A stretch of 64,000 bases of DNA from positions 1 through 64,000 of the forward strand of contig NZ_JALPTB010000013.1 of the NCBI RefSeq assembly GCF_023218075.1, written 5' to 3'. Below, piece after piece: positions 4,607 to 51,304 of this stretch. This stretch comes from Rhodococcus sp. HM1. Its GTDB lineage: Bacteria; Actinomycetota; Actinomycetes; Mycobacteriales; Mycobacteriaceae. Within the stretch, counting starts at the first letter, position 1. Every line of letters begins with the position of its first letter. Made by a program: the position numbers and the translations under genes. The notes below the pieces were generated by a model. That model searched no databases and was not told the origin of the DNA. It saw only the letters and a program-made list of their open reading frames with translations.

Positions 4607-4947
4607 GCCCGTACCTCCCGTTCGTCGACGAAGTAAGCCCGTGCGACGCGCTGCGGTTGCCGGAAATCGTTCGCGTCGAAGCGGGGTGTTCGGATGAGGG
4701 TCGCGATCGTGGCGGATCTCGTGCTGCGTAAGCATTTTCGATCCGCCCTGCGACGGGAGCGCCTTGTCCCATGTAGTCACCCCCGTTGCCGACCCCCTGG
4801 GGACAAAGATAGACGCTGGTCCAACTTCTTGGAACCCGTTCCAGGAATTCTCGCAACTCCGGGCGAACCTTCTACGCTGACAACGACTCAGCGCCTCGCC
4901 CACGCGTACGGCGGAACGAGAGGCCCGACGAGGAAAGTGCGGACACC
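4607..4947. promoter_or_regulatory. Divergent intergenic region, kinase operon / TetR gene
   Basis: No gene is seen in this 341-bp stretch. It contains an inverted repeat GGCGGATC (4711-4718) / GATCCGCC (4740-4747) with a nested TGCT/AGCA pair in the loop, and the separate KstR-type palindrome at 4830-4843. Promoters for both directions must lie here, but no clear -35/-10 pair was found. Confidence 0.5.
4830..4843. promoter_or_regulatory. KstR-type operator palindrome
   Basis: TGGAACCCGTTCCA is a perfect 14-bp inverted repeat and matches TNNAACNNGTTNNA, the published KstR consensus of mycobacteria and rhodococci (recalled), at every fixed position. It lies 105 bp before the TetR gene and 224 bp before the kinase gene, so either KstR or the adjacent TetR protein could bind it. 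Confidence 0.6.
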
Positions 4948-5580
4948 ATGAGCGAGCCCACGGCACTCGGTCGCCGCGAGCGGAACAAGCTGCGGACCCG
5001 GCAGCGCATGCTGGACGCGGCCAGACGGCTGTTCGCCGAACGCGGCGTCGACGGTTCGACGATCGAGGACATCGCCGATCTCGCCGGCGTCTCGCGCGCA
5101 ACGGTTTTCAATTACTTCCCCAGCAAGGACGACCTGATCACGGCGCTGCACGCGAGTCACATGGACGCGCTGACAACCCTGATCGACCAGCTGCTCGCGC
5201 AGGACCTCACCACCGCGGAACGGATCGCGGGCGTCTTTGCCGACTTCGCGCGTGAATCGCGGCGGTATCCCGGTTACATGCGGGCGGTCACCGGCGAGAT
5301 CGAAAGGGATCTCGGCACACCCGATACCGCCCGCGAACGCACGCAGCGATTCGACGAGCAGATGCTGCGCATCGTCGAGCCCGGTGTCGAGCGCGGCGAG
5401 GTCCGCACCGACTACCCGCTGCCGTTCCTCGCGCAGATGGTCGGCGCCGTGTACGTCTCGACGCTGCGGCACTGGCGTCAGAACCCGGACGACGACGGCA
5501 CCGAGAGCTTCGACCGGGCAGCACGATTCGCTGCCGACGCCCTCGCGCCCGGCACCGGATCCGGTCGCGGTCACGGGTAG
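4948..5580 (+). CDS. TetR-family transcriptional regulator
   Basis: A 210-residue TetR/AcrR regulator. The N-terminal helix-turn-helix domain spans about residues 15-62 and ends in the typical VSRATVFNYFPSKDDL recognition-helix region; the rest is an all-helical ligand-binding domain that cannot be assigned. The ATG at 4948 is preceded by GAGGAAAG. It is divergent from the kinase operon and convergent with the acyl-CoA synthetase, so it probably controls the lipid-catabolic genes on either side, perhaps through the palindrome at 4830-4843. An acyl-CoA ligand is plausible for this context but is inference. Confidence 0.9.
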   Translation: MSEPTALGRRERNKLRTRQRMLDAARRLFAERGVDGSTIEDIADLAGVSRATVFNYFPSKDDLITALHASHMDALTTLIDQLLAQDLTTAERIAGVFADFARESRRYPGYMRAVTGEIERDLGTPDTARERTQRFDEQMLRIVEPGVERGEVRTDYPLPFLAQMVGAVYVSTLRHWRQNPDDDGTESFDRAARFAADALAPGTGSGRGHG

Positions 5581-5601
5581 CGCACCCGCGACCGCGACCG
5601 G
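5561..5601. terminator. Bidirectional terminator, TetR / FadD
   Basis: A 12-bp perfect stem (CCGGTCGCGGTC / GACCGCGACCGG) is extended after one mismatch by CGGGT/ACCCG around a 5-base loop. It overlaps the TetR stop codon and lies between two convergent genes. Confidence 0.7.
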
Positions 5602-5609
5602 TAGAGGGA

Positions 5610-7202
5610 CTACTTCGCGGCTTCGAGAGTTGCCTTGGCCCACCGGTAGTCGGCCTTGCCCGCGGGCGAACGCACGATCGTGTCGACACCGACGACCAGC
5701 CGCGGCACCTTGTAGCCGGCGATCCGGTCGGCGACATGCGCGATCAGCTCGTCGAGATCGGGCACCGCGTGGCCCTCGCGCGGCTGCACGACGGCTCCGA
5801 CGCGCTGCCCGTAGCGTTCGTCCTCGACTCCCGCGACGAGCACATCCATCACGGCCGGGTGGCTCTTGATGGCCATCTCCACCTCTTCGGGATACACCTT
5901 TTCCCCGCCGGTGTTGATGCACAGCGAGCCGCGTCCGAGCAGCACGATCGTGCCGTCCTCCTCGACTTCGGCCATGTCCCCGAGAACCGACATGCGAACC
6001 CCGTCGATGACCGGGAAGGTCGCCGCGGTCTTCTCCGGGTCGCCCCAGTACCCGAGCGGCACGTGGCCGGCGCGGGCGATGTAGCCGATCTCGCCGGAAC
6101 CCGGCTCGATCGGGCGCATCCGCTCGTCGACGACCTTGACGGTCGGCTTCGCGGCGATCCGCATCCGGCCGTCCTCGCCGATCGACAGATCGCCGTCGAT
6201 GCCGGACTCGGAGGATCCGAATCCGTCGCGCACCATGACGTTCGGCAGGAGCGAGACGAGCTGCTCGCGGACCTGCTTGGAGAACAGCGCGCCGCCGGAC
6301 CCGACGACGAACAGCGAACTCAGGTCGTACTCGGAGCCGTGTTCGGCGATCGCGTCGGCGAGCGGACGAGCCATCGCGTCGCCGACGATCGTCATCGTCA
6401 TCACGCGTTCGCGTTCGACGACCGCGAGCACCTCCTTCGCGTCGAACGCCGGGAGCACGACCTGCGAGACTCCGAGGCAGAAGGCACTGAACATGCTGTA
6501 CATCGCGGCGCCGTGGATGAGCGGCGCGGTGAGCAGCCACGTCATCTCCGGCATGTTCGCGGCCTGGTTCGCAACCGATGCGATGTCCGAGTGCGGCTCC
6601 CCCATCGAGTTGCCGCCGGACAGTGCCGCGAAGAAGAAGTCCTCGGCGCGCCACATCACGCCCTTCGGCATGCCGGTGGTGCCACCGGTGTAGATGATGA
6701 ACTGGTCGTCGCCGCTGCGCGGCGCGAAGTCGCGCGCGTCGGACTCCGCGGCGACCGCCTTGTGGAAGTCGGCGGTGGTGACCGTCCCCCAGTCGACGTC
6801 GTCGGCCGGTCCCACGGTGACGATGTGCCGGACCGTCGGCGTGCGCGGCAGGACCGCGGCCGTCCTGGGCGCGAACTCACCGTCGGCGACGATGGCGGCG
6901 AGTTCGGCGTTGGCGAACAGGTAGGCCAGCTCGGCGTCGACGTAGCGGTAGTTGATGTTGATCGGGACGGCCCGGATCTTCAGGATCGCCAGAAGCGCTT
7001 CGACGAATTCGGTGCTGTTGCGCATGTAGAGACCGACGTGCTCACCTGCGGAGATCCCCGCACCGGCCAGATGGTGAGCGAGCCGGTTGGCTGCGGCATC
7101 GAGTTCGCGGTAGGTGAGGCGGCTGTCCCCACAGATGATCGCGGTGCGATCGGGGACGGCGTCGGCGATGGCTTCGAACAGGTCCGCGAGGTTCAGCGAC
7201 AT
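5610..7202 (-). CDS. Acyl-CoA synthetase (FadD19-like)
   Basis: A 530-residue member of the adenylate-forming family that would activate a carboxylic acid with ATP and CoA. The AMP-binding loop YTGGTTGMPKG is at 171-181, the GSSESG core motif follows in the middle, and a C-terminal SPAGKADY carries the catalytic Lys (about Lys516). The N-terminus (NLADLFEAIADAVPDRTAII) resembles FadD19 of the cholesterol-degradation cluster, which activates side-chain acids (recalled). ATG at 7202 has AGAAGGA seven bases upstream; an in-frame GTG at 7220 lies before that site and is rejected. It is divergent from the SDR at 7396 and convergent with the TetR gene. Confidence 0.92.
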   Translation of the reverse strand: MSLNLADLFEAIADAVPDRTAIICGDSRLTYRELDAAANRLAHHLAGAGISAGEHVGLYMRNSTEFVEALLAILKIRAVPININYRYVDAELAYLFANAELAAIVADGEFAPRTAAVLPRTPTVRHIVTVGPADDVDWGTVTTADFHKAVAAESDARDFAPRSGDDQFIIYTGGTTGMPKGVMWRAEDFFFAALSGGNSMGEPHSDIASVANQAANMPEMTWLLTAPLIHGAAMYSMFSAFCLGVSQVVLPAFDAKEVLAVVERERVMTMTIVGDAMARPLADAIAEHGSEYDLSSLFVVGSGGALFSKQVREQLVSLLPNVMVRDGFGSSESGIDGDLSIGEDGRMRIAAKPTVKVVDERMRPIEPGSGEIGYIARAGHVPLGYWGDPEKTAATFPVIDGVRMSVLGDMAEVEEDGTIVLLGRGSLCINTGGEKVYPEEVEMAIKSHPAVMDVLVAGVEDERYGQRVGAVVQPREGHAVPDLDELIAHVADRIAGYKVPRLVVGVDTIVRSPAGKADYRWAKATLEAAK

Positions 7203-7324
7203 CGAGATTCCTTCTGACACAGTGGTGGAAATCGTCGCGACACCGTGACATCTGTCACCCCGGCGATTCCTGTCACTCCCGGCCAGTGGGACAGCTCCGG
7301 ACCGGCCGACCCACCGGCCTCACA

Positions 7325-7346
7325 AACTAGAACCAATACTAGTTCT
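7325..7346. promoter_or_regulatory. Overlapping inverted repeats in the FadD/SDR divergent promoter
   Basis: AACTAG (7325-7330) and CTAGTT (7339-7344) form a 6-8-6 inverted repeat, and AGAAC (7329-7333) and GTTCT (7342-7346) form a second, overlapping 5-8-5 repeat. TAGAAC is a KstR-like half-site, but the spacing differs from the two-base gap of KstR sites. It sits 50 bp before the SDR start, in the 193-bp gap shared with the acyl-CoA synthetase. Confidence 0.45.
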
Positions 7347-7395
7347 GTCCCGGGGTTCGTTCTCCCCGTGGCAGCCGCACACAGGGAGAGATCGC

Positions 7396-8319
7396 ATGGG
7401 CGAATCAGTCAGCTTGGCCGGCCGCACCGCCGTCGTCACCGGAGCCGGCGCGGGTCTCGGCCGCGCCGAGGCGCTCGCTCTCGCCGCCGCGGGCGCCGCG
7501 GTCGTCGTCAACGACATGGGTCCGGCCGCGCACGACGTCGCCGACGAGATCACCGCGGCCGGCGGCCGGGCGGTCGCCGTCACCGGCGATGTCTCCGACT
7601 GGTCGCTCGGCGGCCGTCTCGTCGACGAGGCCGTGAGCATGTTCGGCTCCCTCGACATCCTGGTCAACAATGCGGGCATCCTGCGCGACAAGATGATCTT
7701 CAACCTGTCCGAGTCCGACTGGGACGACGTGATCCGCGTCCATCTCAAGGGCCACGCCGCCACCTCGCACGCCGCCGCCGTGCACTGGCGCAATGCGAGC
7801 AAGGCCGCCGGTGCCCCTGTCTACGGCCGGGTCGTCAACACCTCCTCCGAGGCATTCCTGTTCGGTTCGGCCGGGCAGCCCAACTACTCGGCGGCCAAAG
7901 CGGGAATCACCGCGTTGACCCTGTCCACCGCACAGGGCCTGGCCCGCTACGGTGTCACGGCGAACGCGATCTGCCCGCGCGCCCGGACCGCGATGACCGC
8001 CGGGACGTTCGGTGAGAACGAGAACCCGAACGGCGGACTCGATCCCCTCGCACCCGAGCGCGTCGCGACCCTGGTGTCCTACCTGGCATCGCCCGCGTCC
8101 CACGAGATCACCGGCCAGGTCTTCGTCGTGTACGGCAAGATGGTCGCGCTCATGGCCTCACCGAAGGTCGAGAACCGTTTCGACGCAGCGGGATCCGAGT
8201 TCACGGTGAACGAACTCGACGAGCAGCTCTCCACCTACTTCACCGGCCGCGGCAGGTACGAGACGTACTCGGCGTACAGCGTGGCCGAGCTGGAGAAGCC
8301 CGCACTCGCCATCGACTGA
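7396..8319 (+). CDS. SDR-family oxidoreductase, Hsd4A/MFE-2-like 3-hydroxyacyl-CoA dehydrogenase type
   Basis: A 307-residue SDR with TGAGAGLG (15-22), NNAG (91-94), Ser151, Tyr164 and Lys168 (YSAAK). The N-terminal half, including NNAGILRDKMIFN and SEAFLFGSAGQPNYSAAK, is typical of the dehydrogenase part of multifunctional enzyme 2 and of mycobacterial Hsd4A-type proteins, which oxidise 3-hydroxyacyl-CoAs or 17-beta-hydroxysteroids (recalled). The C-terminal 60 residues extend beyond a normal 250-residue SDR, as in that group. ATG at 7396 follows GGGAGAG. The next SDR starts 31 bp downstream, so the two are probably co-transcribed. Confidence 0.9.
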   Translation: MGESVSLAGRTAVVTGAGAGLGRAEALALAAAGAAVVVNDMGPAAHDVADEITAAGGRAVAVTGDVSDWSLGGRLVDEAVSMFGSLDILVNNAGILRDKMIFNLSESDWDDVIRVHLKGHAATSHAAAVHWRNASKAAGAPVYGRVVNTSSEAFLFGSAGQPNYSAAKAGITALTLSTAQGLARYGVTANAICPRARTAMTAGTFGENENPNGGLDPLAPERVATLVSYLASPASHEITGQVFVVYGKMVALMASPKVENRFDAAGSEFTVNELDEQLSTYFTGRGRYETYSAYSVAELEKPALAID

Positions 8320-14129: not shown

Positions 14130-15359
14130 ATGAACGACGCTTCCGGCCGTCCCGCCGCGCCCCCTGAGCAGACGGCGCTGCGGTCGACGATCGTCGCCGC
14201 CGTCCTGCTCGACGCCTCCCCCGACTGGGATCGGGTCGGTGAGATGCTCTCCGGTGGAACCCCCGAAACGCCGGCGTTCCGGCACCGCGTTCTCGACGTG
14301 CCGTTCGGGCTGGCGCCGCCGCGATGGGCCGGCGAACACGACTCGGACCTGCCGTGGCAACTCGATCGGGTGACCCTGCCCTCCCCCGCGACCTTCGACG
14401 ACGTTCTCGACTACGCCCGCACGACCTCCGCCGCCGCGGTCCCGGAACATCCCGGGTGGGAGCTGACGCTGGTCGAAGGGTTGCTCGGCGGCCAGTCCGC
14501 CCTGCTGATCCGCATTCACCACGCGTACGCCGACGGCGCCGACGGCACCCACATCACCGCCCGCATCGTCGACCTCGAACGACACGGTCACGAACACCCG
14601 GAACCCGAGCCGGAAACGACGACCGCGGAGGACGCGACCGATCGGGCAGCCGGCTCGTTCGGTTCCCTCGTCGAGTCGATCGGCGGACTGGTGCAGTCCC
14701 TCGCGGCGCCGCTGCGGTGGTTCACGTCGTCCGCCGAACCCGCCAGGACCGGCGCCCGCCGGCTGCACGTGGTGGACGTGCCGCTCACCGAGTTGCGGGC
14801 GGCCGCCGAGCGCGCGGGCAGCACCCTGGACAGCGCGTTCCTCGCGGCGGTGCTGCTCGGGCTGGCCGATTACCGGTTCCGCTGCGGTATCGACGTCGAC
14901 GAGCTGAGCCTGGCGATGCCGCTGGCCCCAGAGAACGGTGGTACAGGGAACGGCGGTCCCGGGATCAGCCTGGCCCGTGCCGACCTGCCGGTCCCCGCCG
15001 ACGATCCGGCGCTGCTCATGCGACTGCTCGACGAGTACTCCGGCCCCGCCACCGAACCCGGCCGGCACCTCGCACCCCCACCGAACCTGCTGCCGGCGGT
15101 GATCGACGACCCGCTCGACCACGACGACGTGTTCGCCTGCACGGTGCCGGGATCGCACGTGCCCCTGTACGTGGCGGGCGCGAAGATCGAGAAGTACTAC
15201 GGCTTCGGGCCGACGCTCGGTTCGGCGTTCAACGCGACCCTGATGTCGTACCTGGACAGCTGCTGTCTCGGGTTCACGATCGACACCGACGCGGTGCGCG
15301 ACGCCGAGATGTTCGACGACTGCATCCGCGCCGGTCTGCTCGCAGTCCTCGAGAGCTGA
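14130..15359 (+). CDS. WS/DGAT-family O-acyltransferase
   Basis: A 409-residue member of the wax ester synthase/diacylglycerol acyltransferase family, which esterifies acyl-CoA to long-chain alcohols or diacylglycerol for storage lipids. The active-site motif is HHAYADG (His130, His131, Asp135, Gly136), fitting HHxxxDG. The family's C-terminal block is present (VPGSHVPLYVAGAKIEKYYGFGPTLGSA). It lacks the usual N-terminal (S)PxDxxFLxxE motif seen in its neighbour at 16399 and is shorter, so activity is less certain. ATG at 14130 aligns with the paralogue's start at the ALRSTIVA block. The two paralogues flank the membrane protein at 15413. Confidence 0.82.
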   Translation: MNDASGRPAAPPEQTALRSTIVAAVLLDASPDWDRVGEMLSGGTPETPAFRHRVLDVPFGLAPPRWAGEHDSDLPWQLDRVTLPSPATFDDVLDYARTTSAAAVPEHPGWELTLVEGLLGGQSALLIRIHHAYADGADGTHITARIVDLERHGHEHPEPEPETTTAEDATDRAAGSFGSLVESIGGLVQSLAAPLRWFTSSAEPARTGARRLHVVDVPLTELRAAAERAGSTLDSAFLAAVLLGLADYRFRCGIDVDELSLAMPLAPENGGTGNGGPGISLARADLPVPADDPALLMRLLDEYSGPATEPGRHLAPPPNLLPAVIDDPLDHDDVFACTVPGSHVPLYVAGAKIEKYYGFGPTLGSAFNATLMSYLDSCCLGFTIDTDAVRDAEMFDDCIRAGLLAVLES

Positions 15360-15412
15360 CCGTCGGTAGGCTGGGCGTCGTACCCGCACGCACAGTCGGA
15401 AGGCGCATCGCC

Positions 15413-16237
15413 GTGGAACTCCTGCTCATCGTCCTTGCCGTCGGCGCGGTCGTGTACTTCGTGTCGCGGAGCCAGAAGAAATCGTCCGGCCACAGCGCGG
15501 TCCGTCTCGACGATGCGAAGGCGGACGCCCGTCAGGCGATCGAGCGTCTCGGCGGTCAGATCTACAACCTGACCGGGACCGACGACGCCTCCAAGCAGGC
15601 GCTCGCGGACGCGTCCGAGCGCTACAACGCGGCCGGCTCGCAAATCGAGCAGGCGCAGACCCCGGCGCAGGCGCGCCTCGCGAAGCAGAGCGCTCTCGAA
15701 GGGCTGTACTACATCCGGGCGGCCCGCATCGCGATGGGCATGGATCCCGGACCGGAGATCCCGCCGCTCGACGGCCAGAAGTCGGCCGGCGCCGTCACCG
15801 AGGAACGGCAGATCGAATTCGAGGGCCGGCAGGTGTCCGCATCCCCGTCCCCGTCGCCGCGGACGCCGAACTACTACCCCGGCGGCCGGGTCGCGGGCCG
15901 TCCGGTGCCGGCGGGCTGGTACTCGGAACCGTGGTGGAAGCCGGCGCTGGTCGCGGGCGCCTGGGGCGTGGGATCGATGCTGCTGTTCTCGGCGATGTTC
16001 TCGGGCATGGCCGGGGTGCCGTACGACGCGCAGGCGTTCGAGAGCGGTGTCGGCGACGGCACCGCGGACGTCGGTGACGTGGGCGGCGGTGAGGACTTCG
16101 GCGGAGACGATTTCGGCGGCGGTGACGATTTCAGCGGTGGTGACGATTTCGGCGGCGGTGGCGACTTCGGCGGCGGTGGCGACTCCGGCGGGTTCGACTT
16201 CGGTGGCGGCGACTTCGGGGGCGGGTTCGACTTCTGA
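15413..16237 (+). CDS. Membrane protein with Gly/Asp/Phe-repeat tail
   Basis: A 274-residue protein of unknown function. Residues 2-18 form an N-terminal membrane anchor (ELLLIVLAVGAVVYFV), residues 30-110 are charged and helical, 143-170 are Pro/Ser/Tyr-rich, and about 178-200 form a second hydrophobic segment. From about 205 to the end is a low-complexity tail dominated by Gly, Asp and Phe in GGDDFGG-like units, ending in FDF. The GTG at 15413 has GGAAGG upstream. It sits between two WS/DGAT paralogues, 54 bp after the first. The layout recalls small TPM/DUF-type envelope proteins with glycine-rich tails, but no family is claimed. Confidence 0.75.
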   Translation: MELLLIVLAVGAVVYFVSRSQKKSSGHSAVRLDDAKADARQAIERLGGQIYNLTGTDDASKQALADASERYNAAGSQIEQAQTPAQARLAKQSALEGLYYIRAARIAMGMDPGPEIPPLDGQKSAGAVTEERQIEFEGRQVSASPSPSPRTPNYYPGGRVAGRPVPAGWYSEPWWKPALVAGAWGVGSMLLFSAMFSGMAGVPYDAQAFESGVGDGTADVGDVGGGEDFGGDDFGGGDDFSGGDDFGGGGDFGGGGDSGGFDFGGGDFGGGFDF

Positions 16238-16398
16238 CCGGCGCAGCTGAATCGTCGATCCTGTCGACGTAGGCAGCCGTTCCGATCGGCGGTCACCGGT
16301 GTCCGGGGACTTCCGACCGGAACGGCCGGGATCGTGGACTCTGGCCGCGGCGCCCGCAAATGTGGGATCGTCCGAACATGGGCACCGCAGGACGGCGC

Positions 16399-17769
16399 AT
16401 GGCGCAGACCGATTTCCTGACGTGGAGCATGGAGCAGGACCCCGCGCTGCGTTCGACGATCGTCGCCGTCATCACACTCGATTCGTCCCCCGACTGGGAC
16501 CGCGTCGTCGAGATGATGGACCGCGGCACCCGGGACGTCCCGCACTTCCGGCACCGGGTCGTGTCCGTCCCGTTCGGCCTGGGCGCGCCGCGCTGGGTCG
16601 CGGACCCGGACTTCGACCTGTCCTGGCATCTGCGGCACACCGCGCTGCCGTCCCCCGGCACGATCGACGACGTCCTGGAACTCGCCCGCATCGCGGCCAT
16701 GACGGCGTTCGACCGGGCCCGGCCGCTGTGGGAGCTGACCGTCGTCGACGGCCTCGCCGACGGAGGCGCAGCGATCCTGCTCAAGGTGCACCACGCGCTC
16801 ACCGACGGTCTCGGTGGCATGCAGATCACCGCGCACATCGTCGATTTCACGCGGGAGGGCACCCCGCGGCCGGAACCGCCCGCTCCCCCGGAACCCGAGC
16901 GCCTCGGCTCGTGGGACCTCGTGACCGAACTGCTAGAGGATTACGGGTCCCAGGCCCGCGGCATGGTCGGCCGGGGACTGCGGTCGGTGTGGCCCGCGAC
17001 CCGCGCGGTGGTCACCGACCCGGTCGGAGCCGCGCGCGGTGTGCTCGGCACGGTGTCGTCGGTGGCCCGCTATCTGCGGCCGATCACGACGACCGCGTCG
17101 CCGGTGATGACCGAACGCGCCTTGGGCCGGGCGCTGTTCTCGTTCGATGTCCCGCTCGAGGGGCTCCGCGCGGCGGGGCATCGCGCCGGATGCACCGTCA
17201 ACAGCGCCTTCCTCACGGCACTGGTCGTCGGCCTGCACCACTATCACCGCGCTCACGACGCCGACGTCGAGTCGTTGCGGGTGACGATGCCGCTGAGCGT
17301 GCGCCGACCGGACGACGAGATGGGCGGCAACCGCATCAACCTGGCGCGATTCGCGCTTCCGGTACACGGCGGCGACGTCGACGACCTCATGCGGGAGATC
17401 GAGTCGATCGTCCGTGCGTGGCGGGCGGAACCGGCGCTCGATATGGGCGAGGTGCTCGCCGCTCCCCTGAACATGTTGCCGCCGGCGGTGGTCGGCAGCA
17501 TGCTCGAGCACGTCGACTTCCTGGCCTCGAACGTGCCGGGATCCCCGGTCCCGCTGTATGTGGCGGGTGCGCGGGCCGAGCGGTACTACGCCTTCGGGCC
17601 GACACTCGGGTCGGCGTTCAACGTGACGATGGTGTCGTATCTCGGCACGTGCTGCCTGGGCGTCACGCTCGACGTCGGGGCAGTGCCGGACCGGGCCGTG
17701 TTCGAGGAATGCATCCGCACCGGGTTCCGGGACGTCCTCGGCGAGAAGTCGGACGAATCCGTGTCGTGA
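16399..17769 (+). CDS. WS/DGAT-family O-acyltransferase
   Basis: A 456-residue wax ester synthase/diacylglycerol acyltransferase. The catalytic HHALTDG is at 131-137, followed by GLGGMQ; TDFLTWSMEQDP near the N-terminus corresponds to the family's FLxxE region, and ASNVPGSPVPLYVAGA is the typical C-terminal block. It closely resembles the gene at 14130, consistent with an ancestral duplication. ATG at 16399 is preferred (AGGA six bases upstream and alignment to the paralogue); in-frame ATGs at 16360 and 16378 are alternatives. It probably acts at the inner face of the membrane or on lipid bodies. It is convergent with nei. Confidence 0.9.
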   Translation: MAQTDFLTWSMEQDPALRSTIVAVITLDSSPDWDRVVEMMDRGTRDVPHFRHRVVSVPFGLGAPRWVADPDFDLSWHLRHTALPSPGTIDDVLELARIAAMTAFDRARPLWELTVVDGLADGGAAILLKVHHALTDGLGGMQITAHIVDFTREGTPRPEPPAPPEPERLGSWDLVTELLEDYGSQARGMVGRGLRSVWPATRAVVTDPVGAARGVLGTVSSVARYLRPITTTASPVMTERALGRALFSFDVPLEGLRAAGHRAGCTVNSAFLTALVVGLHHYHRAHDADVESLRVTMPLSVRRPDDEMGGNRINLARFALPVHGGDVDDLMREIESIVRAWRAEPALDMGEVLAAPLNMLPPAVVGSMLEHVDFLASNVPGSPVPLYVAGARAERYYAFGPTLGSAFNVTMVSYLGTCCLGVTLDVGAVPDRAVFEECIRTGFRDVLGEKSDESVS

Positions 17770-42946: not shown

Positions 42947-44296
42947 TCAGCGCTGCAGCCGGGCGAGTATGTCGGCCAGGTGATTTGCCAGCTCGACCTG
43001 CTCGGGGACGATCGCGGGATCGGCCACCAGGGTGATCCCCAGCTCGCCCGCGTACGACAGCACCGCGAAGGTCACACCCGCGTTGCCGGGGGTGACCACC
43101 AGCGGCACCAGCGACCGCACCCGGAACCCGGCCAGTTCCACGGGCTCGGCCGGGCCGCGCAGATTGGTCACGAACGTGTGCACCATCCGCTGGTGATCGA
43201 TGAACAACCGGAACAATCCGAGCCGGCTGAGCGCCCGGAACGCCGATCCGAGCGGCCCGCCGGACGACGCACGATCCGGAAGATGTTCGCGGGCAGCGCT
43301 CGTCGCCGCGACGATCCGCGCGAGCCGGGTCTCGTCGTCCGCGATCGCCGGTACCGAGACGGGGCGGACACCGGTGGCGTTGCCGAGACGGTCCGCGGTC
43401 GTGCTGCGGCGCCCCGAGATCGGCACCGACACCACCAACCGGTCGGGATGCTCCCCGCGAGCTCGCAGGACAGCCAGCATGGCCCCGGTCACTGCCGTCA
43501 CGACGACATCGTTGACGGTGCCATGGTGGCGGTGCGCCAGGGATGTGACGTCGGCCAGCGGAACGGTGATCCGTGTGAGACGCCGTCGGCTCGACGTCGG
43601 CCGGTTCAGCGAGGTCGGCTCGACGAGGCGAGGCCACCTTCGGCCGAAACCGAGTTCGCGCAACCCCGCGAATCCTCGGCGCATCGCGACCGGGAGCGCT
43701 CGCACGGCGGCGAGCTTCGCTCGCGCGGCATCGGCCGCCAACGTCTTCCGGCTCGGCGGTGGCTGCGGGAAGACCGGGCCGGCGACCAGCGGTCCGCCGT
43801 CGGTCAGCGCCGCCAGCACCGCCAAGCCGCCGAGGCCGTCGGCGAGCACATGGTGCAGGACCACGATCAGGGCACTTCGTCCGCCCGATCGGTCCGTCAC
43901 CAGTCGCGCCTGCCACAACGGACGGTCGTGAGGAAGGGGGGTGCAGACGAATTCGGCTGCGAGGTCGAAGAGTCGGCGTTCGTCTGCCGGTACGGGCCAA
44001 TCCTGTTCGGCCAGATGCTGTTCGAGGGTGAAACCCGGGTCGTCGACCCACACCGGACGGCCACAGCCGAACGGCACTCGCTGCAGTCGCTGTCGCAGCC
44101 GCGGAATCGAGGGAATCCGCTCTGCAAGGTGCGTTCTCAGCGTCGACAGATCGGGCCCGGGCGCTGCGTCGAACTCGAGGATCGCACCGATGTTCATCGG
44201 TACCGGTCCACGATCGGTCGCGAGCACGGTGAGGTCCGCCGGACCGGCACGCTCGATCCGGACCCGGTTCGATGTGTCGGGGTTCGCGTTCGACAC
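42947..44296 (-). CDS. WS/DGAT-family O-acyltransferase after the cox genes
   Basis: A 449-residue wax ester synthase/diacylglycerol acyltransferase-like protein. HHVLADG (148-154) followed by GLGGLAVL is the active site; the second half contains TVNDVVVTAVTGAML and VTNLRGPAEPVELAG, both family blocks. The GTG at 44296 has an ideal GGAGGTGA eight bases upstream. It begins 22 bp after coxE and runs in the same direction, so it may be the last gene of the cox operon. It is more distant from the two paralogues at 14130 and 16399 than they are from each other. Confidence 0.88.
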   Translation of the reverse strand: MSNANPDTSNRVRIERAGPADLTVLATDRGPVPMNIGAILEFDAAPGPDLSTLRTHLAERIPSIPRLRQRLQRVPFGCGRPVWVDDPGFTLEQHLAEQDWPVPADERRLFDLAAEFVCTPLPHDRPLWQARLVTDRSGGRSALIVVLHHVLADGLGGLAVLAALTDGGPLVAGPVFPQPPPSRKTLAADAARAKLAAVRALPVAMRRGFAGLRELGFGRRWPRLVEPTSLNRPTSSRRRLTRITVPLADVTSLAHRHHGTVNDVVVTAVTGAMLAVLRARGEHPDRLVVSVPISGRRSTTADRLGNATGVRPVSVPAIADDETRLARIVAATSAAREHLPDRASSGGPLGSAFRALSRLGLFRLFIDHQRMVHTFVTNLRGPAEPVELAGFRVRSLVPLVVTPGNAGVTFAVLSYAGELGITLVADPAIVPEQVELANHLADILARLQR

Positions 44297-44318: not shown

Positions 44319-45524
44319 TCATCGCGCCGCGACGACGGTTTCGAGCACGTCGTGCAAGGCGCCGAACGTGTCCGCGGGCAGCAGCGCATCGCAGTACGGC
44401 AGCGCCGCGGCCATCGCCCCGGTACTCGGCGTGAAGCCCGGGCTTCCGGCGCGGGGATTGAGCCACACGACGCGGTGCGCGCGATGGCGGATCCGCGCCA
44501 TCGTCCGCGCCAACGCGGCCGGTTCGTCGCTGTCCCAGCCGTCCGAGGCGATCACGACGATCGCGCCGCGCAACAGGTGCCCGCGGTGCGATCCGAGGAT
44601 CTCGGCGAGACTGCCCGCGATGCGGGTGCCGCCGAACCGGTCGGCGACCTTCGCGTTCGCCTCGTCGACGGCCCGCTCCACGGAACGGTGGGCAAGGGTC
44701 GCGGTCAGACGGGTCGGCGCGGTCGCGAATGCGAAGACCTCCGCATCACCGGACCGGACCGCCGCCCGCATCAGGTGCAGGTAGATCTCGGCGTAGCCGC
44801 GCATGGACCGGCTCACGTCGCACAGCACCACGATCCGGCGGCGGCGCCTGCGGGGCTGCGAATGCACCAGCCGGACGAGTTCGTAGCCGGTGTGCCGGGA
44901 CCTCGCGATGCTCGCGCGCAGATCGATGCGTCCGCTGGTGCGCTGTTCCCGACGGCGTGACCGGCGGGTCGGCCACCGCACCGCGAGTTGCTCCAGCGCG
45001 GCGCCGAGATCGCGCAGCGCCGCCGGATCCATGTCCCCGAACCGCTGGTCCGCGGAGCCCGCCAGCGCGGAGGCCAGCTTCTCCCCCGGCCTGGTGTCGT
45101 CGCGGGTGTCCGCCACCGCGGCACGGGTGACCCACGGAACGGGGGCCGCGGCGTGGGAGGTGGAGGCGCGGGCGTCCGCGACGTTCGGCTTTCCGATCGG
45201 ATCGGCGCCGCGCCGGGCGCTGTCGTCGGGACCGGTGCGCCGTGCGTGCGGATCCAGTTGCAGCGCAGCGTGATCGAACACGGCGGTGAACGCGGCGTCG
45301 AATCCGGCGAGGTTGTCGTAGCTGCCGACGAGGGACAGCCGCGCCACCCAGTACAGGCGGCTGCGGGTGCGCGGCGGGTGCAGGTGCAGGGCGCGGCTGA
45401 GGGTGGCGGACGCGTCGGCGGGCACGGTGACACCCCCGGCACGCAGCCGGTCGACGAGCGCGACCGCGAATGCGGCGCGGTCGACGCCGCGCAGCACGCC
45501 TCCGTCGTCGGGTTCCTGCGGCAT
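44319..45524 (-). CDS. coxE: VWA-domain protein CoxE, CO dehydrogenase maturation
   Basis: A 401-residue protein with a C-terminal von Willebrand A domain. The metal-ion-dependent adhesion site begins DVSRS (Asp236, Ser238, Ser240), and a later GGTRIAGSL and SDGWDSDEP supply the other loops. CoxE works with the CoxD ATPase to insert sulfur and copper into apo-CO dehydrogenase (family knowledge from Oligotropha). Its ATG at 45524 shares a base with the coxD stop (TGATG overlap), so translation is coupled. Ser/Arg-rich segments at 185-230 separate an all-helical front part from the VWA domain. Confidence 0.93.
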   Translation of the reverse strand: MPQEPDDGGVLRGVDRAAFAVALVDRLRAGGVTVPADASATLSRALHLHPPRTRSRLYWVARLSLVGSYDNLAGFDAAFTAVFDHAALQLDPHARRTGPDDSARRGADPIGKPNVADARASTSHAAAPVPWVTRAAVADTRDDTRPGEKLASALAGSADQRFGDMDPAALRDLGAALEQLAVRWPTRRSRRREQRTSGRIDLRASIARSRHTGYELVRLVHSQPRRRRRRIVVLCDVSRSMRGYAEIYLHLMRAAVRSGDAEVFAFATAPTRLTATLAHRSVERAVDEANAKVADRFGGTRIAGSLAEILGSHRGHLLRGAIVVIASDGWDSDEPAALARTMARIRHRAHRVVWLNPRAGSPGFTPSTGAMAAALPYCDALLPADTFGALHDVLETVVAAR

Positions 45525-46414
45525 CACGGGGTTCCCGCGAACTCCCCGTAGGCGCCGCGGATCGTGTCGAGGTCGTCGGGGGTCTTGGCGAGGGCGGCCA
45601 GCCCGGTCGCGTCGGACCGCACGAGATCGCTGACGCCGAGCGCAGCGAGCGCGGACACCCAGTCGATGGTCTCGGCGATTCCCGGGGCCTTGTCCAGGTC
45701 GAGGGTGCGCACGGTCGCGACGAACTCCGCGGCGCGGGCGATCAGCGCCGCGTTCGCGACGGGCACGGTGCGGCGCAGGATCGCGACCGCCCGTTCCCGG
45801 TCGGGATAGTCGATCCAGTGGTACAGGCAGCGGCGGCGCAGTGCGTCGTGCAGGTCGCGACTGCGGTTGGAGGTGAGCACCACCACCGGCCGCCGGGTCG
45901 CGGCGAGGGTGCCCAGTTCCGGCACGGTGACGGCGAACTCGCCGAGGAATTCGAGCAACAGCGCCTCGAATTCGTCGTCGGCACGGTCGATTTCGTCGAC
46001 GAGCAGCACCGGTGCGGTGGGGCCGCGGTGTCGCACGCACTGCAGGACGGGCCGCTCGAGAAGGAATTCCTCCGAGTACAGGTCGGCCTCGCGCAGGGTG
46101 TCGCCGCGGGATTCGGCGAGGCGGATGGCGAGCAGTTGCCGCTGATGGTTCCAGTCGTAGAGGGCTTCGCTCGCGGTCAGCCCCTCGTAGCACTGCAGCC
46201 GGATGAGCGGCGCGTCGAGTGCCAGGGCGAGTGCCTTGGCCGCGGTGGTCTTCCCCACTCCCGGTTCGCCTTCGAGCAGCAGCGGCCGGCCGAGTTCGAC
46301 GGCGAGGAACAACGCCGTGGCGGTCCCCTCGTCGAGCAGGTAGTCGTGCGCGTCGAACCGGCGGATCACGTCGTCGACGTCGGTGAACGTCGGGGCCGGG
46401 CCGGGCACCGTCAC
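45524..46414 (-). CDS. coxD: MoxR-type AAA+ ATPase CoxD
   Basis: A 296-residue AAA+ ATPase. Walker A is GEPGVGKT (49-56), Walker B is LLVDEID (137-143), sensor 1 is VVVLTSNRSRDL, and YWNH-like YDWNHQRQLL is typical of CoxD. In the CO dehydrogenase system it drives the assembly of the Cu-S-Mo centre with CoxE (family knowledge). The GTG at 46414 overlaps the stop of the XdhC/YHS gene by four bases. It has the normal length for a single-domain MoxR protein. Confidence 0.95.
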   Translation of the reverse strand: MTVPGPAPTFTDVDDVIRRFDAHDYLLDEGTATALFLAVELGRPLLLEGEPGVGKTTAAKALALALDAPLIRLQCYEGLTASEALYDWNHQRQLLAIRLAESRGDTLREADLYSEEFLLERPVLQCVRHRGPTAPVLLVDEIDRADDEFEALLLEFLGEFAVTVPELGTLAATRRPVVVLTSNRSRDLHDALRRRCLYHWIDYPDRERAVAILRRTVPVANAALIARAAEFVATVRTLDLDKAPGIAETIDWVSALAALGVSDLVRSDATGLAALAKTPDDLDTIRGAYGEFAGTP

Positions 46415-47286
46415 GCCGCGTGCTCCTTCTCGTAGGCGCGGCGGCAACCGGGGCAGCAGAACCACACATCGGTGCCGTCGAGGTTCAGGTGCGGGGTGGA
46501 GTCGGTGACGGTCACGGTCATGCCGCACACCGGGTCGACGGCGGTGATCGGCTGCGGCGCGGACACGGGCGGTGCCACCTTGCCGCTGCGGATCGTGCGC
46601 ACCACGTCCGCGACGATGGACAGGCCGATCTCCGCGGCGGTGCGGGCTCCGATGTCCAGGCCCGCCGGGGTGTGGATGCGGGCAAGTTCGGAGGCGGTGG
46701 CGTCGAGCTGCTCGAGGACCTCGGGCCCGCGCTTGCGGCTCGCGACCAGACCGATGTACGGGGCACCGGCGTCGAGGCCGGAGCGGATCACCGCGGCCTC
46801 CTCCCCGCCGAGGCTCGCGACGATCACGGCGGTCGCCCCGTCCGGCACGTGGGTGCCGGGCAGCCGGACCACGGCGAGGTCGAGGAGCTCCCCGAACGCC
46901 GCGACCGCCTCGGCTATCGGGGACGTCCCGAAGATCGCGAGGATCGGCGCCGGCAGTTGCGGTTCCAGGAAGATCTCCATGGCGCCTCCGGATTGGCAGG
47001 GATTGACCGCGACGGTCGCGCCGGGCGCCTCGGGAAAGACGCCCGCGTCCCCCGGCAGCACCCGCAGCAGCACACTCTCACCGGTATCGAGCGCCTCGCG
47101 AGCGGCGACGCGCACGGAATTCTCGGTGCACTGCCCACCGACGAAGCCCTCGATGGTGCCGTCGCCGAGCACGAGCGCGCAGTCCCCGGATCTCGCGGAC
47201 GTCGGCTTCTGTGCCCGCACCACGGTGGCGCGGACGAACGGCCGGCGGTCGGCGGAAAGCTGCGCGGCCCGCGCGGTGAGGTCCAT
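46411..47286 (-). CDS. XdhC/CoxI-family maturation factor fused to a YHS domain
   Basis: A 291-residue protein in two parts. Residues 1-230 are XdhC/CoxI-like: GGQC (Cys53), NPCQSGGAMEIFLEP (Cys97) and a Rossmann-like second domain ending in TPAGLDIGARTAAEIGLSI, which in this family stores or sulfurates the molybdenum cofactor before insertion. Residues 251-291 are a YHS metal-binding domain: DPVCGM (Cys254) and WFCCPGC (Cys277, Cys278, Cys281). YHS domains occur in copper-handling proteins. ATG at 47286 is chosen over GTG 47298, which overlaps its own ribosome site. It lies directly after coxL, 19 bp apart, and overlaps coxD. Confidence 0.9.
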   Translation of the reverse strand: MDLTARAAQLSADRRPFVRATVVRAQKPTSARSGDCALVLGDGTIEGFVGGQCTENSVRVAAREALDTGESVLLRVLPGDAGVFPEAPGATVAVNPCQSGGAMEIFLEPQLPAPILAIFGTSPIAEAVAAFGELLDLAVVRLPGTHVPDGATAVIVASLGGEEAAVIRSGLDAGAPYIGLVASRKRGPEVLEQLDATASELARIHTPAGLDIGARTAAEIGLSIVADVVRTIRSGKVAPPVSAPQPITAVDPVCGMTVTVTDSTPHLNLDGTDVWFCCPGCRRAYEKEHAA

Positions 47287-47305
47287 GGTTCTCTTCACCC
47301 TCCCG

Positions 47306-49702
47306 TCAGATCGGTGGTGTCGCCCGGCCCTGCATCGCCTCCCACACCCGCGACGGCGTCAGCGGCATGTCGGCGTGCCGCACCCCGAACGGTTTCAGTG
47401 CGTCGACGACGGCGTTGACGACGGCAGGCGGGGACCCGACGGTCGCGGACTCGCCGATACCCTTCGCGCCGATCGGGTGGTGCGGCGACGGGGTGACGGT
47501 GAATCCGGTCTCGAGGTGCGGCACCTCGAGCGCAGTCGGGATCAGGTAGTCCATGAAGGAACCGCTGAGACACGTTCCGTTCTCGTCGAATTCGATCATC
47601 TCCATCAGCGCCATCCCGATGCCGTCGACGATGCCGCCGTGCACCTGGCCCTCGATGATCATCGGGTTGATGCGGGTGCCGCAGTCGTCGACGGCGAGGA
47701 ACCGCCGCACCTTCACCTGGGCGGTACCCGGGTCGATGTCGACGACGCAGAAGTACGCGCCGTACGGGTAGGTGAGATTCTCGGGGTTGTAACAGATCTG
47801 GGCTTCGAGCCCGCCCTCGATCCCCTCCGGCAGGTCGCCGGCGCCGTACGAGCGCATGGCGATGTCCTGGATCGTGACGGCCGCGTCGGGGTCGCCCGCG
47901 ACGTGGAAGCGTCCCTTCTCCCATTCCAGGTCGGCGACGGACACCTCGAGCATCCCGGAGGCGATGATCTTCGCCTTGTCGCGGACCTTGCGGGCGACCA
48001 GCGCGGCCGCGGCGCCCGAGACCGGGGTCGAGCGGCTGCCGTAGGTGCCGAGCCCGAACGGGGTGTTGTCGGTGTCGCCGTGCACGACGTCGATGTCCTG
48101 GGGTGGAATGCCCAGTTCCTCCGCGACGATCTGCGCGAACGTCGTCTCGTGGCCCTGCCCCTGCGACTGCACCGACAGCCGGACCACGGCCTTGCCGGTC
48201 GGGTGCACCCGCAGCTCGCAGCCATCGGCCATGCCCAGGCCGAGGATGTCCATGTCCTTGCGCGGCCCGGCGCCTACGGCCTCGGTGAAGAACGACATGC
48301 CGATGCCCATGAGCTCGCCGCGCTCGCGCCGCTCCGCCTGTTCGCGGCGCAGCTCGTCGTAGCCGATCATGTCCATGGCCTTGCGCATCGTCGTCGCATA
48401 GTCGCCCGAGTCGTACTTCCACCCGGTCTTGCTCATGTACGGGAACTGGTCCGGGCGCAGCAGATTCTTCAGCCGCAGCTGCGCCGGGTCCATGTCGAGG
48501 TCGTAGGCGAGGCAGTCCACGAGCCGTTCGACGAAGTACACGGCCTCGGTGATGCGGAACGAGCACGCGTACGCGACGCCGCCGGGCGCCTTGTTGGTGT
48601 AGACGGCGGTCATGTGGCAGTAGGCGGCTTCGATGTCGTAGCTGCCGGTGAACACGCCGAAGAATCCGGCCGGGTACTTCACCGGGGCCGCGGTGCCGTT
48701 GAAGGCGCCGTGGTCGGCGAGGACCTGCGAGCGGATCGCCAGGATCTTGCCGTCCTTGGTGGCCGCGATCTCCCCGACCATCACGTAGTCGCGGGCGAAT
48801 CCGGTGCTGACCAGGTTCTCGCTGCGGTCCTCCATCCACTTGACCGGTTTGCCGGTCAGCAGCGACGCCACGATCGCGCACACGTAGCCCGGGTAGATCG
48901 GAACCTTGTTGCCGAAACCGCCGCCGATGTCCGGGGAGATCACCCGGATCTTGTGCTCGGGCAGACCTGCGACCAGCGCATACAGGGTGCGGTGCGCGTG
49001 TGGGGCCTGGCTAGTGGACCACAAGGTCAGCTTGCCGGTGACGCGGTCCAGGTCGGCGACGGCCCCGCAGGTCTCCATCGGTGCCGGGTGCACGCGCGGG
49101 TAGACGATCTCCTGGCGGCTCACCACGTCGGCCTTCGCGAACGCGGCGTCGGTGGCGGCGGCATCGCCGGTCTCCCAGTCGAAGCAGTGGTTGTCGGTCT
49201 TGCCGTCGAGGTCGTCGCGGATCACCGGCGCGTCCTCCGCGAGTGCACGGCGGACATCGATCACCGGGTCGAGCTGCTCGTATTCGACGTCGATGAGCTC
49301 GAGCGCGTCGCGCGCGGAGTAGCGGTCCTCGGCGACGACGAACGCGACCTCCTGCCCGAAGAACCGCACCTTGTCGGTGACGAGGACAGCCTGCACGTCG
49401 TTGGACAGGGTCGGCATCCACGCCAGGCCCTTGGCGGCGAGGTCGGCGCCGGTGACAACGGCTTTGACCTTGGGATGCGACTGCGCGGCGGTGGTGTCGA
49501 TGCTGACGAGTTTCGCGTGCGCGACGGGGGCGCGCAGGATCGCCAGGTGCAGCATCCCGGGCAACTGGACGTCGTCGACGTAGTTGCCGCGCCCCCGGAT
49601 GAAGCGGGGATCCTCCTTGCGGAGCATCCGGCCGTGCCCGCACGGTGTGCGGTCGTTGTCGACGGTCTCGGGATCCTGCCGGTCGGGTTCGACGGCGGTC
49701 AT
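47306..49702 (-). CDS. coxL: Aerobic CO dehydrogenase large (Mo) subunit, form I
   Basis: A 798-residue molybdenum hydroxylase subunit. The active-site loop reads GGVAYACSFR with Cys380, the AYxCSFR signature of form I CO dehydrogenase, where this Cys binds the copper of the Mo-S-Cu centre; form II proteins have AYRGAGR instead. Glu751 in GIGESATVG is the conserved base near the molybdenum. GGGFGNK (260-266) contacts the molybdopterin cytosine dinucleotide. It should oxidise CO to CO2 and pass electrons through CoxS and CoxM. ATG at 49702 overlaps the coxS stop (ATGA), which fixes the start; the frame before it belongs to antisense of coxS. Confidence 0.97.
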   Translation of the reverse strand: MTAVEPDRQDPETVDNDRTPCGHGRMLRKEDPRFIRGRGNYVDDVQLPGMLHLAILRAPVAHAKLVSIDTTAAQSHPKVKAVVTGADLAAKGLAWMPTLSNDVQAVLVTDKVRFFGQEVAFVVAEDRYSARDALELIDVEYEQLDPVIDVRRALAEDAPVIRDDLDGKTDNHCFDWETGDAAATDAAFAKADVVSRQEIVYPRVHPAPMETCGAVADLDRVTGKLTLWSTSQAPHAHRTLYALVAGLPEHKIRVISPDIGGGFGNKVPIYPGYVCAIVASLLTGKPVKWMEDRSENLVSTGFARDYVMVGEIAATKDGKILAIRSQVLADHGAFNGTAAPVKYPAGFFGVFTGSYDIEAAYCHMTAVYTNKAPGGVAYACSFRITEAVYFVERLVDCLAYDLDMDPAQLRLKNLLRPDQFPYMSKTGWKYDSGDYATTMRKAMDMIGYDELRREQAERRERGELMGIGMSFFTEAVGAGPRKDMDILGLGMADGCELRVHPTGKAVVRLSVQSQGQGHETTFAQIVAEELGIPPQDIDVVHGDTDNTPFGLGTYGSRSTPVSGAAAALVARKVRDKAKIIASGMLEVSVADLEWEKGRFHVAGDPDAAVTIQDIAMRSYGAGDLPEGIEGGLEAQICYNPENLTYPYGAYFCVVDIDPGTAQVKVRRFLAVDDCGTRINPMIIEGQVHGGIVDGIGMALMEMIEFDENGTCLSGSFMDYLIPTALEVPHLETGFTVTPSPHHPIGAKGIGESATVGSPPAVVNAVVDALKPFGVRHADMPLTPSRVWEAMQGRATPPI

Positions 49703-50196
49703 GACACTGCTCCCTCGGATTCGGTGAGCTGTTCGGCGGGGGCGTGTTCGGCGGCCCAGCGCACCGAACGCACGATGGTCGTGTAGCCGGTGCAGCGGCA
49801 GATCTGGCCGGAGATCGCCTCGCGGATGGTGGCTTCGTCGGGGTCGGGATTGCGGTCGAGCAGGGCGCGCGCGGTGATCATCATGCCCGGCGTGCAGAAC
49901 CCGCACTGCAGGCCGTGACACCGCATGAACCCTTCCTGGACCGGGTCCAGCACGCCGTCCTTCTCGAGCCCTTCGACGGTGAGGACGTCGTGCCCGCCTG
50001 CCATCGCGGCGAGCGTCGTGCACGACTTGACGGGTTCACCGTCGACGGCGACGACGCAGGTGCCGCAGTTGCTGGTGTCGCATCCCCAGTGGGTTCCGGT
50101 GAGCCCCAGGTGGTCTCGCAGGAAGTGCACGAGAAGCGTCCGAGGTTCGATCTCCGCGGTAACAGGCTCCCCGTTCACCGTCATCGAAACCTGCAT
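49699..50196 (-). CDS. coxS: CO dehydrogenase small (iron-sulfur) subunit
   Basis: A 165-residue subunit carrying two [2Fe-2S] clusters. The plant-ferredoxin-like cluster uses Cys39, Cys44, Cys47 and Cys59 ([11 protein letters not shown]), and the second uses Cys98, Cys101, Cys133 and Cys135 (QCGFC and ICRC). It moves electrons from the Mo-Cu site to the flavin. ATG at 50196 starts four bases after coxM, and its stop overlaps coxL. Every cluster ligand is present and the length is normal for the family. Confidence 0.97.
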
Positions 50197-50200
50197 GAGT

Positions 50201-51082
50201 TCAGCCCCTTTCGGAAACTGCGAGCCGTTCGACGGAGCGGCGCAGCGTGCGTACGGTCAGTTCCGACGCGAGATGACGCTTGTAGTCGGCTGTTCCGCGC
50301 TGATCGGCGTCAGGGTTGCACGCGGCCGCGGCTCGCGCGCCGGCCTCGCGGAACAGTTCTTCGGAAGGTTCGGCGCCGCGCAGGAATTCGCCGAGTTCGG
50401 CGAGCGCGTCGGGATCGGGACGCACCGCGGTGAGCGCGACCCGCGCCTGCTCGATCGTCTTCCCGTTCATCCACACTGCCGCCCCGGCGGCAGCGATGGC
50501 CCAGTCCCCCGCACGCCGTTCGACCTTCGCGTATGCACTGGATCCGTTGCCGTGGCGCGGCAGGCGCACCTCGACGAGCAGTTCGTTGCTCGCGGCGGCA
50601 GTCTCGTAGGGACCGAGCTCGAAGTCGGCGAGCGCAAGCTCCCGGGTTCCGGACGGTCCGCGCAGCACGCACGTGGCGTCGAGCGCGGTGCACACCGTCG
50701 ACAGATCCTCGGCAGGATCGGCCTGGCACAAGGACCCGCCGAGGGTGCCGCGGTTGCGGACGACCGGGTCGGCGATCACTTTCTCCGCGTCCCGGAAGAT
50801 CGGGAACACCGCGGCGAGTTCGTCGGACTCGAGCAGTTCGCGGTGGCGGACCATCGCGCCGATCCGCACCACGTCGTCACCGATGTCGATGTAGCCCAGC
50901 TCGCCGGCGAGGTCGTTGATGTCGATCAAGAACTCGGGGTTCGCCAGCCGCAACTTCATCATCGGCAGGAGGCTGTGACCGCCGGCGATGACCCTCGCCT
51001 CGTCCCCCAGCTTGTCCAGCAGCGCGATCGCGTGGTCGACGCCGGTCGCGCGTTCGTACTCGAATGGCCCTGGTACCTGCAT
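50201..51082 (-). CDS. coxM: CO dehydrogenase medium (FAD) subunit
   Basis: A 293-residue flavoprotein subunit. The FAD-binding motifs AGGHS (33-37) and TLGGS (113-117) are both intact, and the VRNRGTLGGSLCQADPAEDL region is typical of CoxM. It hands electrons to the quinone pool. It is the first gene of the operon. ATG at 51082 is preferred, with GAGG eight bases upstream; GTG 51091 falls inside that site. The start codon is overlapped by a perfect CRP-type palindrome, and a candidate -10 lies about 30 bp upstream. Confidence 0.95.
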   Translation of the reverse strand: MQVPGPFEYERATGVDHAIALLDKLGDEARVIAGGHSLLPMMKLRLANPEFLIDINDLAGELGYIDIGDDVVRIGAMVRHRELLESDELAAVFPIFRDAEKVIADPVVRNRGTLGGSLCQADPAEDLSTVCTALDATCVLRGPSGTRELALADFELGPYETAAASNELLVEVRLPRHGNGSSAYAKVERRAGDWAIAAAGAAVWMNGKTIEQARVALTAVRPDPDALAELGEFLRGAEPSEELFREAGARAAAACNPDADQRGTADYKRHLASELTVRTLRRSVERLAVSERG

Positions 51083-51227: not shown

Positions 51228-51304
51228 GCCTCCGTAGCTCAGGTGGATAGAGCAAGAGCCTTCTAATCTCTAGGTCGCAGGTTCGAATCCTGCCGGGGGC
51301 ACCA
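51228..51304 (+). tRNA. tRNA-Arg (TCT)
   Basis: A 77-base tRNA starting GCCTCCG and ending CGGGGGCACCA, with CCA encoded. The anticodon loop is CTTCTAA, giving TCT, and the T arm has GGTTCGAATCC. One T-G wobble occurs in the acceptor stem. TACGAT about ten bases before it is a likely -10. Confidence 0.97.

Follow-up and report, generated by a model that had tools for sequence, protein, structure and literature searches.

The closest described counterparts of the operon treated here, six cox genes on the minus strand (44319-51082) of a 64,000-nt stretch of Rhodococcus sp. HM1 (contig NZ_JALPTB010000013.1; the whole stretch is called the window, and the genus of its genome the own genus), are the molybdenum carbon monoxide (CO) dehydrogenases (Mo-CODH) of three other bacteria and a second operon of the same genome. 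Mycobacterium smegmatis oxidises atmospheric CO in starvation with a form I enzyme, as a coxL mutant showed, and the same species expresses a CoxG (MSMEG_0749) that is encoded three locus numbers away from its CoxL (MSMEG_0746; PMC6794299), whereas the window operon is without coxG. The pHCG3 cox cluster of Afipia (Oligotropha) carboxidovorans likewise combines coxMSL with MoxR, VWA and XdhC-type genes and falls in the same form I clade, but its CoxL is 57% identical and reads AYRCSFR, and its XdhC-type and coxG genes both lie within the operon behind coxMSL, in the order M-S-L-D-E-F-G by product. Thermomicrobium roseum is similar in that its PLSDB gene table, which is incomplete, lists no coxG within 8 kb of coxL; its structural and accessory cox operons are separate, but unlike in the window genome no form II operon is named in the source passage (PMC6776052). 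The second operon of the window genome is of form II (contig C164, coxSLM, active-site motif AYRGAGR); it also encodes a molybdenum cofactor (MoCo)/Fe-S/FAD trimer with a coxD and coxE of its own, and has the one close CoxF and the one clear CoxG of the genome, but its CoxL is ~44% identical, has no active-site Cys and belongs to a separate clade, and the role of form II enzymes is called unclear in a passage of PMC13203968. Here we report that coxG and coxF are both missing from the form I operon of the own genus, and that the form II operon holds the close copies.

CoxG is described as the route from Mo-CODH to the respiratory chain in a passage of a marine survey citing Kropp et al. 2025, and of the 864 genomes surveyed there, 573 had coxG close to coxL and 235 had it at another place (PMC13240472), so that an unlinked coxG as such is already known. 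For Rhodococcus, nine annotated aerobic CO dehydrogenase genes are given for R. pyridinivorans in a passage without a CO test (PMC13248661), and a CODH cluster is reported for R. qingshengii in a passage of PMC8416521. Our literature search found no report that deals with CO oxidation in this clade of Rhodococcus or with CoxG anywhere in the genus, nor any on sharing of CoxF or CoxG between form I and form II enzymes, the latter being no proof of absence.

The six genes proposed in an earlier sequence-only reading of the window are all intact open reading frames on one strand, with Pfam domains that agree and, unless noted, score above cut-off. They are coxM for the FAD subunit (50201..51082, 293 aa, ATG start, PF00941 and PF03450), coxS for the subunit with two [2Fe-2S] clusters (49699..50196, 165 aa, PF01799 and PF00111), coxL for the predicted Mo-Cu catalytic subunit (47306..49702, 798 aa), a gene for an XdhC-type maturation factor with a C-terminal YHS/TRASH-like Cys motif, here xdhC-YHS (46411..47286, 291 aa, PF02625 and PF13478), coxD for a MoxR-type AAA+ ATPase (45524..46414, 296 aa, GTG start, PF07728) and coxE for a VWA-domain protein (44319..45524, 401 aa, PF05762 at 200 bits). 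The xdhC-YHS start is set at ATG 47286, with GTG 47298 also open, and its YHS-like part matches TRASH (PF24273) below threshold, at 19.8 against a 27-bit cut-off. The tight overlaps that the same reading had claimed hold for coxS/coxL (ATGA), xdhC/coxD (GTGA) and coxD/coxE (TGATG), but coxM and coxS are separated by a 4-nt gap and coxL and xdhC by one of 19 nt. Among the best 80 of 415 loci from one pattern scan of the named-genome collection (the named loci below), coxM, coxS, coxL and xdhC each occur in 80, coxD in 77 and coxE in 75, and this recurrence excludes a chance grouping; the XdhC part is found in 80/80 and its YHS-like tail in 58/80. The form I enzyme is maintained by selection: against five own-genus loci, the ratio of non-synonymous to synonymous substitution rates (dN/dS) is 0.06-0.13 for coxL, 0.07-0.09 for coxS and 0.10-0.20 for coxM, and looser for xdhC-YHS (0.23-0.35) and coxE (0.20-0.43).

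As judged from its sequence, the enzyme is almost certainly a form I Mo-CODH, and the form I claim is borne out by the CoxL tree, the best solved match, the family model, the motif, the gene order and the contrast with the form II CoxL of the same genome. CoxL carries AYACSFR with Cys380, as had been read from the letters, and all of the 134 CoxL stretches that were read, some loci counting twice, have this motif. A tree built from 32 CoxL sequences puts the window protein together with A. carboxidovorans and T. roseum in a 15-member form I clade (ultrafast bootstrap, UFBoot, 100), and a form II clade of nine (UFBoot 100) holds the AYRGAGR CoxL of contig C164. Amongst solved chains CoxL scores 1631.6 bits against 8uem (residues 4-799, thus full length, with the same AYACSFR in the alignment), 1003 against 1ffu, 990 against 1n5w and 520 against the best chain that is not a CO dehydrogenase; we take these three to be the enzymes of M. 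smegmatis, Hydrogenophaga pseudoflava and O. carboxidovorans, respectively. It also reaches 1441.6 bits against the NCBIfam equivalog TIGR02416 (cut-off 991.15), and the order coxM-coxS-coxL is that of form I. The form I motifs given in a passage of PMC13203968 include AYACSFR, and the definitions of the two forms were taken from the same source. Further members of the superfamily are encoded on contigs C110, C164 and C192, and the Rhodococcus-like placement of the locus was right, with R. phenolicus the nearest named relative (96%). As an enzyme it is ordinary and belongs to a known kind.

What sets the operon apart is the junction of coxD and coxE (45522..45526, minus strand, TGATG), which is the position of coxG in related genera. 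Here coxD abuts coxE and there is no PF06240 match anywhere on the window's contig, in agreement with the earlier statement that no coxG adjoins the operon. A coxG homologue lies downstream of coxL in 71 of the 80 named loci, in 70 of them between coxD and coxE (hereafter D-G-E operons), the contig of the 71st (L078) ending before coxE. The nine named loci without coxG comprise four on cut contigs (L053, L055, L058 and L062) and five in which coxE directly follows coxD, from R. phenolicus, R. gordoniae, R. ruber and two Rhodococcus sp. No coxG was found in any of the 13 readable own-genus operons (the window and 12 further genomes), all with coxD abutting coxE, and no PF06240 match occurs within 8 kb of coxL in the 14 own-genus genomes with form I coxL (G010 having a fragment only). 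The spacing between the matched stretches of coxD and coxE is 2-29 nt in own-genus loci vs. at least 628 nt in D-G-E loci. The fullest layout in the family reads coxF-M-S-L-xdhC/YHS-(mocA)-D-G-E, of which own-genus form I loci have neither coxF, mocA nor coxG (locus L127 has too little flank to judge coxF, its twin L010 has none). The mocA-like gene is frequently missing, with no such gene found in 34 of the 71 named coxG-bearing loci, and we make no claim that it is supplied in trans, its homologue elsewhere in the genome being only 30% identical.

In a tree of CoxL, CoxM and CoxD from 119 of 134 loci (15 were dropped as duplicate, cut or redundant), the own-genus loci form a monophyletic group (support 1.0) within a clade of 93 tips, 77 with coxG, 15 without and one of unknown state. 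Parsimony places three losses of coxG in this clade, in the own genus, in an Aldersonia-like genome (G058) and in G126, and counts seven state changes over all 119 tips; support is 0.91 for the sister relation of the own genus and 0.61 for the node nearest G126. Two other loci depart from the common layout in ways of their own. At locus L143 (G147, 4005-8266) the matches to coxG, coxE and one XdhC gene are each broken in two, and an in-frame stop is reported within coxG, which reflects either a decaying operon or sequence errors, and at L071 (a M. interjectum assembly, 15137-16865) ~1.7 kb of extra DNA separates coxD from coxG, which is absent in L051 under the same species name.

The genome-wide search for coxG that the sequence-only reading had advised was run, and yielded one clear CoxG, on contig C164, at the end of the form II operon (coxD-coxE-coxF-coxS-coxL2-coxM-coxG). 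It is a protein of 252 aa with a PF06240 score of 67.4 bits and, judged by eye, a C-terminal hydrophobic stretch in its translation. In a CoxG tree it joins the clade from form II operons (UFBoot 81; 97 for the own-genus part), and the 18 CoxGs of D-G-E operons form a separate clade (UFBoot 94). It is 43-48% identical to D-G-E CoxGs, whilst one of these (L087) is 63-98% identical to the others. A relocated form I coxG is ruled out by this grouping. In other families, the form I operons at L162 and L164 have coxG after coxE; we dropped their CoxGs as proof that a form II-type CoxG can serve a form I enzyme, as FastTree gave 0.98 but UFBoot 62. A third group of Mo-hydroxylase operons, coxL-coxM-coxS-coxG with a CoxL 36-37% identical to form I, was seen at L136, L137, L138 and L140, and its CoxGs group with those of form I D-G-E operons (UFBoot 98, a joint clade of 27).

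Within the own genus a form I coxL is present in 14 of 18 genomes (in G010, a 75% complete genome, as a fragment only) and a PF06240 match in 18/18. Pooling the own-genus sample with those of the family (151) and the order (396), all 98 genomes with a form I coxL by score have a PF06240 match; the background among coxL-negative genomes is 195/326 in the order sample and 24/118 in the family sample. Near and far being defined by distance from coxL only, CoxG is near coxL in 53 of the 98 and not near in 45, all 45 having one elsewhere, and 15 of the 53 carry a second CoxG. These genomes share ancestry and the counts are not independent; a Fisher value (3e-15) was set aside for this reason and because a place elsewhere is forced once all 98 have a CoxG. 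Amongst the 45, G035 and G177 are weak rows as their contigs end before the coxD-coxE junction, as is G010 with its fragment, and in G375 and G444 neither coxD nor coxE was found beside coxL; these are the cases among the maps that were read. Amongst the 53, the weak rows are G361, G355 and G454, where a second, divergent CoxL (56%) lies between, with coxG following this CoxL in the map of G361, the sole one of the three read; in G192, G167 and G166 coxG is located behind coxE.

CoxF has the same distribution in the own genus. In the window genome the only close copy of the coxF that precedes coxM at L011 is the XdhC-type gene of the form II operon, with 70% identity. Exactly one CoxF match above 450 bits was found in 43 of the 44 genomes searched, G010 having a fragment only; this close copy lies within 9 kb of a form II-type coxG in 17/17 own-genus genomes (nine maps read), and just upstream of form I coxM in 26/26 other family genomes. 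A lower-scoring coxF-like gene (at most 365 bits) is present in 10 of the 44, in every case no more than 9 kb from the CoxG gene of a different Mo-hydroxylase operon, and G039 has an additional coxF fragment. Three genomes of two other genera (G052, G100 and G058) show a divided arrangement, in which the form I operon reads coxF-M-S-L-X-D-E without coxG and the form II operon D-E-S-L-M-G without coxF; in G052 (L132/L133, G052:C1:212000-242000) the operons lie side by side in divergent orientation and have a single coxF and a single coxG in total. A tree of CoxF unites the form II copies of the own genus in one clade (95) and groups this with form I copies from most of the family (88); the form I copies of G052 and G100 branch outside, and the node that takes in all of these has a support of only 53. 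Whether an XdhC-type factor is common to several molybdoenzymes was still called speculative in a passage of a 2010 review (PMC2997495). At the site that coxF occupies in other family members, the window has a divergent tRNA-Arg (TCT) gene (51228-51304, plus strand), 145 nt from the coxM start.

Kropp et al. 2025 reportedly describe CoxG as a menaquinone shuttle that M. smegmatis uses. We propose that CoxL would oxidise CO at its Mo-Cu site, and that electrons would pass through the two [2Fe-2S] clusters of CoxS to the FAD in CoxM, with CoxD, CoxE and XdhC-YHS, by homology, maturing the active site. The own-genus form I operon would have lost its own coxG, for the membrane-anchored menaquinone shuttle, together with the upstream coxF and the mocA-like gene; the CoxG of the C164 form II operon, and probably its CoxF, would serve the form I enzyme in trans, and CO electrons would thereby still reach menaquinone through a CoxG. 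Going by gene content, the copy numbers and locations of the close homologues, the trees and the selection on the genes, for which cross-supply is the simplest account, we think it probable that the six genes encode a working form I [MoCu] CO dehydrogenase with helpers supplied by the form II operon; taken singly, we lean towards service in trans by CoxG, and for CoxF the balance is about even. It is likewise an even call whether Mycobacteriaceae with both operons generally run both enzymes on one CoxF and one CoxG, the form I copies having been lost only where another Mo-hydroxylase operon supplies them and the form II enzyme also feeding menaquinone via CoxG. The enzyme would presumably be used on CO in starvation, by analogy with M. 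smegmatis, where this was shown.

The docking subunits bear on this proposal. Of the positions conserved in at least 95% of the 77 loci with coxG, none in CoxM or CoxL and one in CoxD is missing throughout the 13 own-genus loci, so there is no sign of a remodelled docking face, which fits an unchanged partner. An altered CoxG docking face was tried as a candidate and rejected: with the coxG-bearing sister group left out of the reference, the own genus shows two such positions in CoxL, none in CoxM and two in CoxD, the same as the sister group.

Several points count against cross-supply. A COXG match is kept in all 18 own-genus genomes, including the four without form I coxL, so its retention there needs no form I enzyme. 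Counts across genomes are not independent of one another, with three inferred losses in the family clade carrying the pattern, and a background CoxG is common in the order (195/326). The lower identity of the form II CoxG to D-G-E CoxGs (43-48% vs. the 63-98% of L087) means that its specificity may have drifted. In G126, where coxG has been lost, the two CoxG loci belong to a third type and not to the classical form II operon; two CoxG-like anchors of S. acidocaldarius each bound their own partner in a passage of PMC11962113; and since the window operon keeps XdhC-YHS, coxF may be dispensable.

A real rival is that the form I enzyme needs no CoxG, CoxM reducing menaquinone directly at the membrane or using another carrier, in which case the loss of coxG would be a real independence. 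The clean disappearance of coxG from own-genus operons fits this as well, as does the form II CoxG kept by own-genus genomes that lack a form I coxL; the G3PDHs of S. acidocaldarius are reported to reduce quinone without a CoxG in a passage of PMC11962113, and the title of a work cited in PMC6011924 (the title alone) has the O. carboxidovorans CODH reacting with quinones. We nevertheless regard independence as doubtful, though worth keeping in view, as each of the 98 form I genomes has a CoxG somewhere, the docking subunits show no genus-wide change and M. smegmatis is reported to use CoxG (Kropp et al. 2025, a work cited in a passage of PMC13240472). It is unlikely that CoxG has been replaced for the form I enzyme by some other membrane protein not yet recognised or by a divergent SRPBCC protein: the second, weak PF06240 match of the genome, an SRPBCC-like protein on C168 beside a PIG-L-like gene (by eye), scores 26.7 bits against a cut-off of 22.2 and could be such a protein, but with an E-value of 1.7e-5 it falls short of the 1e-6 limit of our coxG surveys and by eye its translation has no C-terminal hydrophobic stretch. 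Decay of a stripped operon whose enzyme is no longer a CO dehydrogenase is very improbable: three accessory genes are absent in the own genus, 4/18 of its genomes were without form I coxL and coxE and xdhC are looser (dN/dS 0.20-0.43 and 0.23-0.35), but all six reading frames are open, coxL and coxS stay at 0.06-0.13 and 0.07-0.09 against the five own-genus loci and the motif is kept in every locus read.

Downstream of coxE, on the same minus strand, lies a wax ester synthase/DGAT (WS/DGAT) gene (42947..44296, 449 aa, GTG start at 44296, PF03007 and PF06974 above cut-off), which begins 22 nt past coxE with a Shine-Dalgarno sequence of its own, GGAGG, 8 nt upstream of its GTG and is a possible last gene of the cox transcript. 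A close homologue directly after coxE was found only in L128 (G017), whereas L084 and L132 have 26% matches that lie 2-3 kb further downstream; the placement may reflect a link between storage lipid and CO use, or a chance insertion.

The disappearance of coxG and coxF from the form I operon, with single close copies in the form II operon, is a modest variant, but a clean and testable one. Surveys that seek coxG only beside coxL would miss such cases, although the marine survey searched the rest of the genome as well. The own genus provides a natural example of an intact Mo-CODH operon that has no coxG, and as one close CoxF and one clear CoxG stand beside the other enzyme, sharing is directly testable by single deletions. 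If cross-supply is true, the form II enzyme would be tied to the quinone pool.

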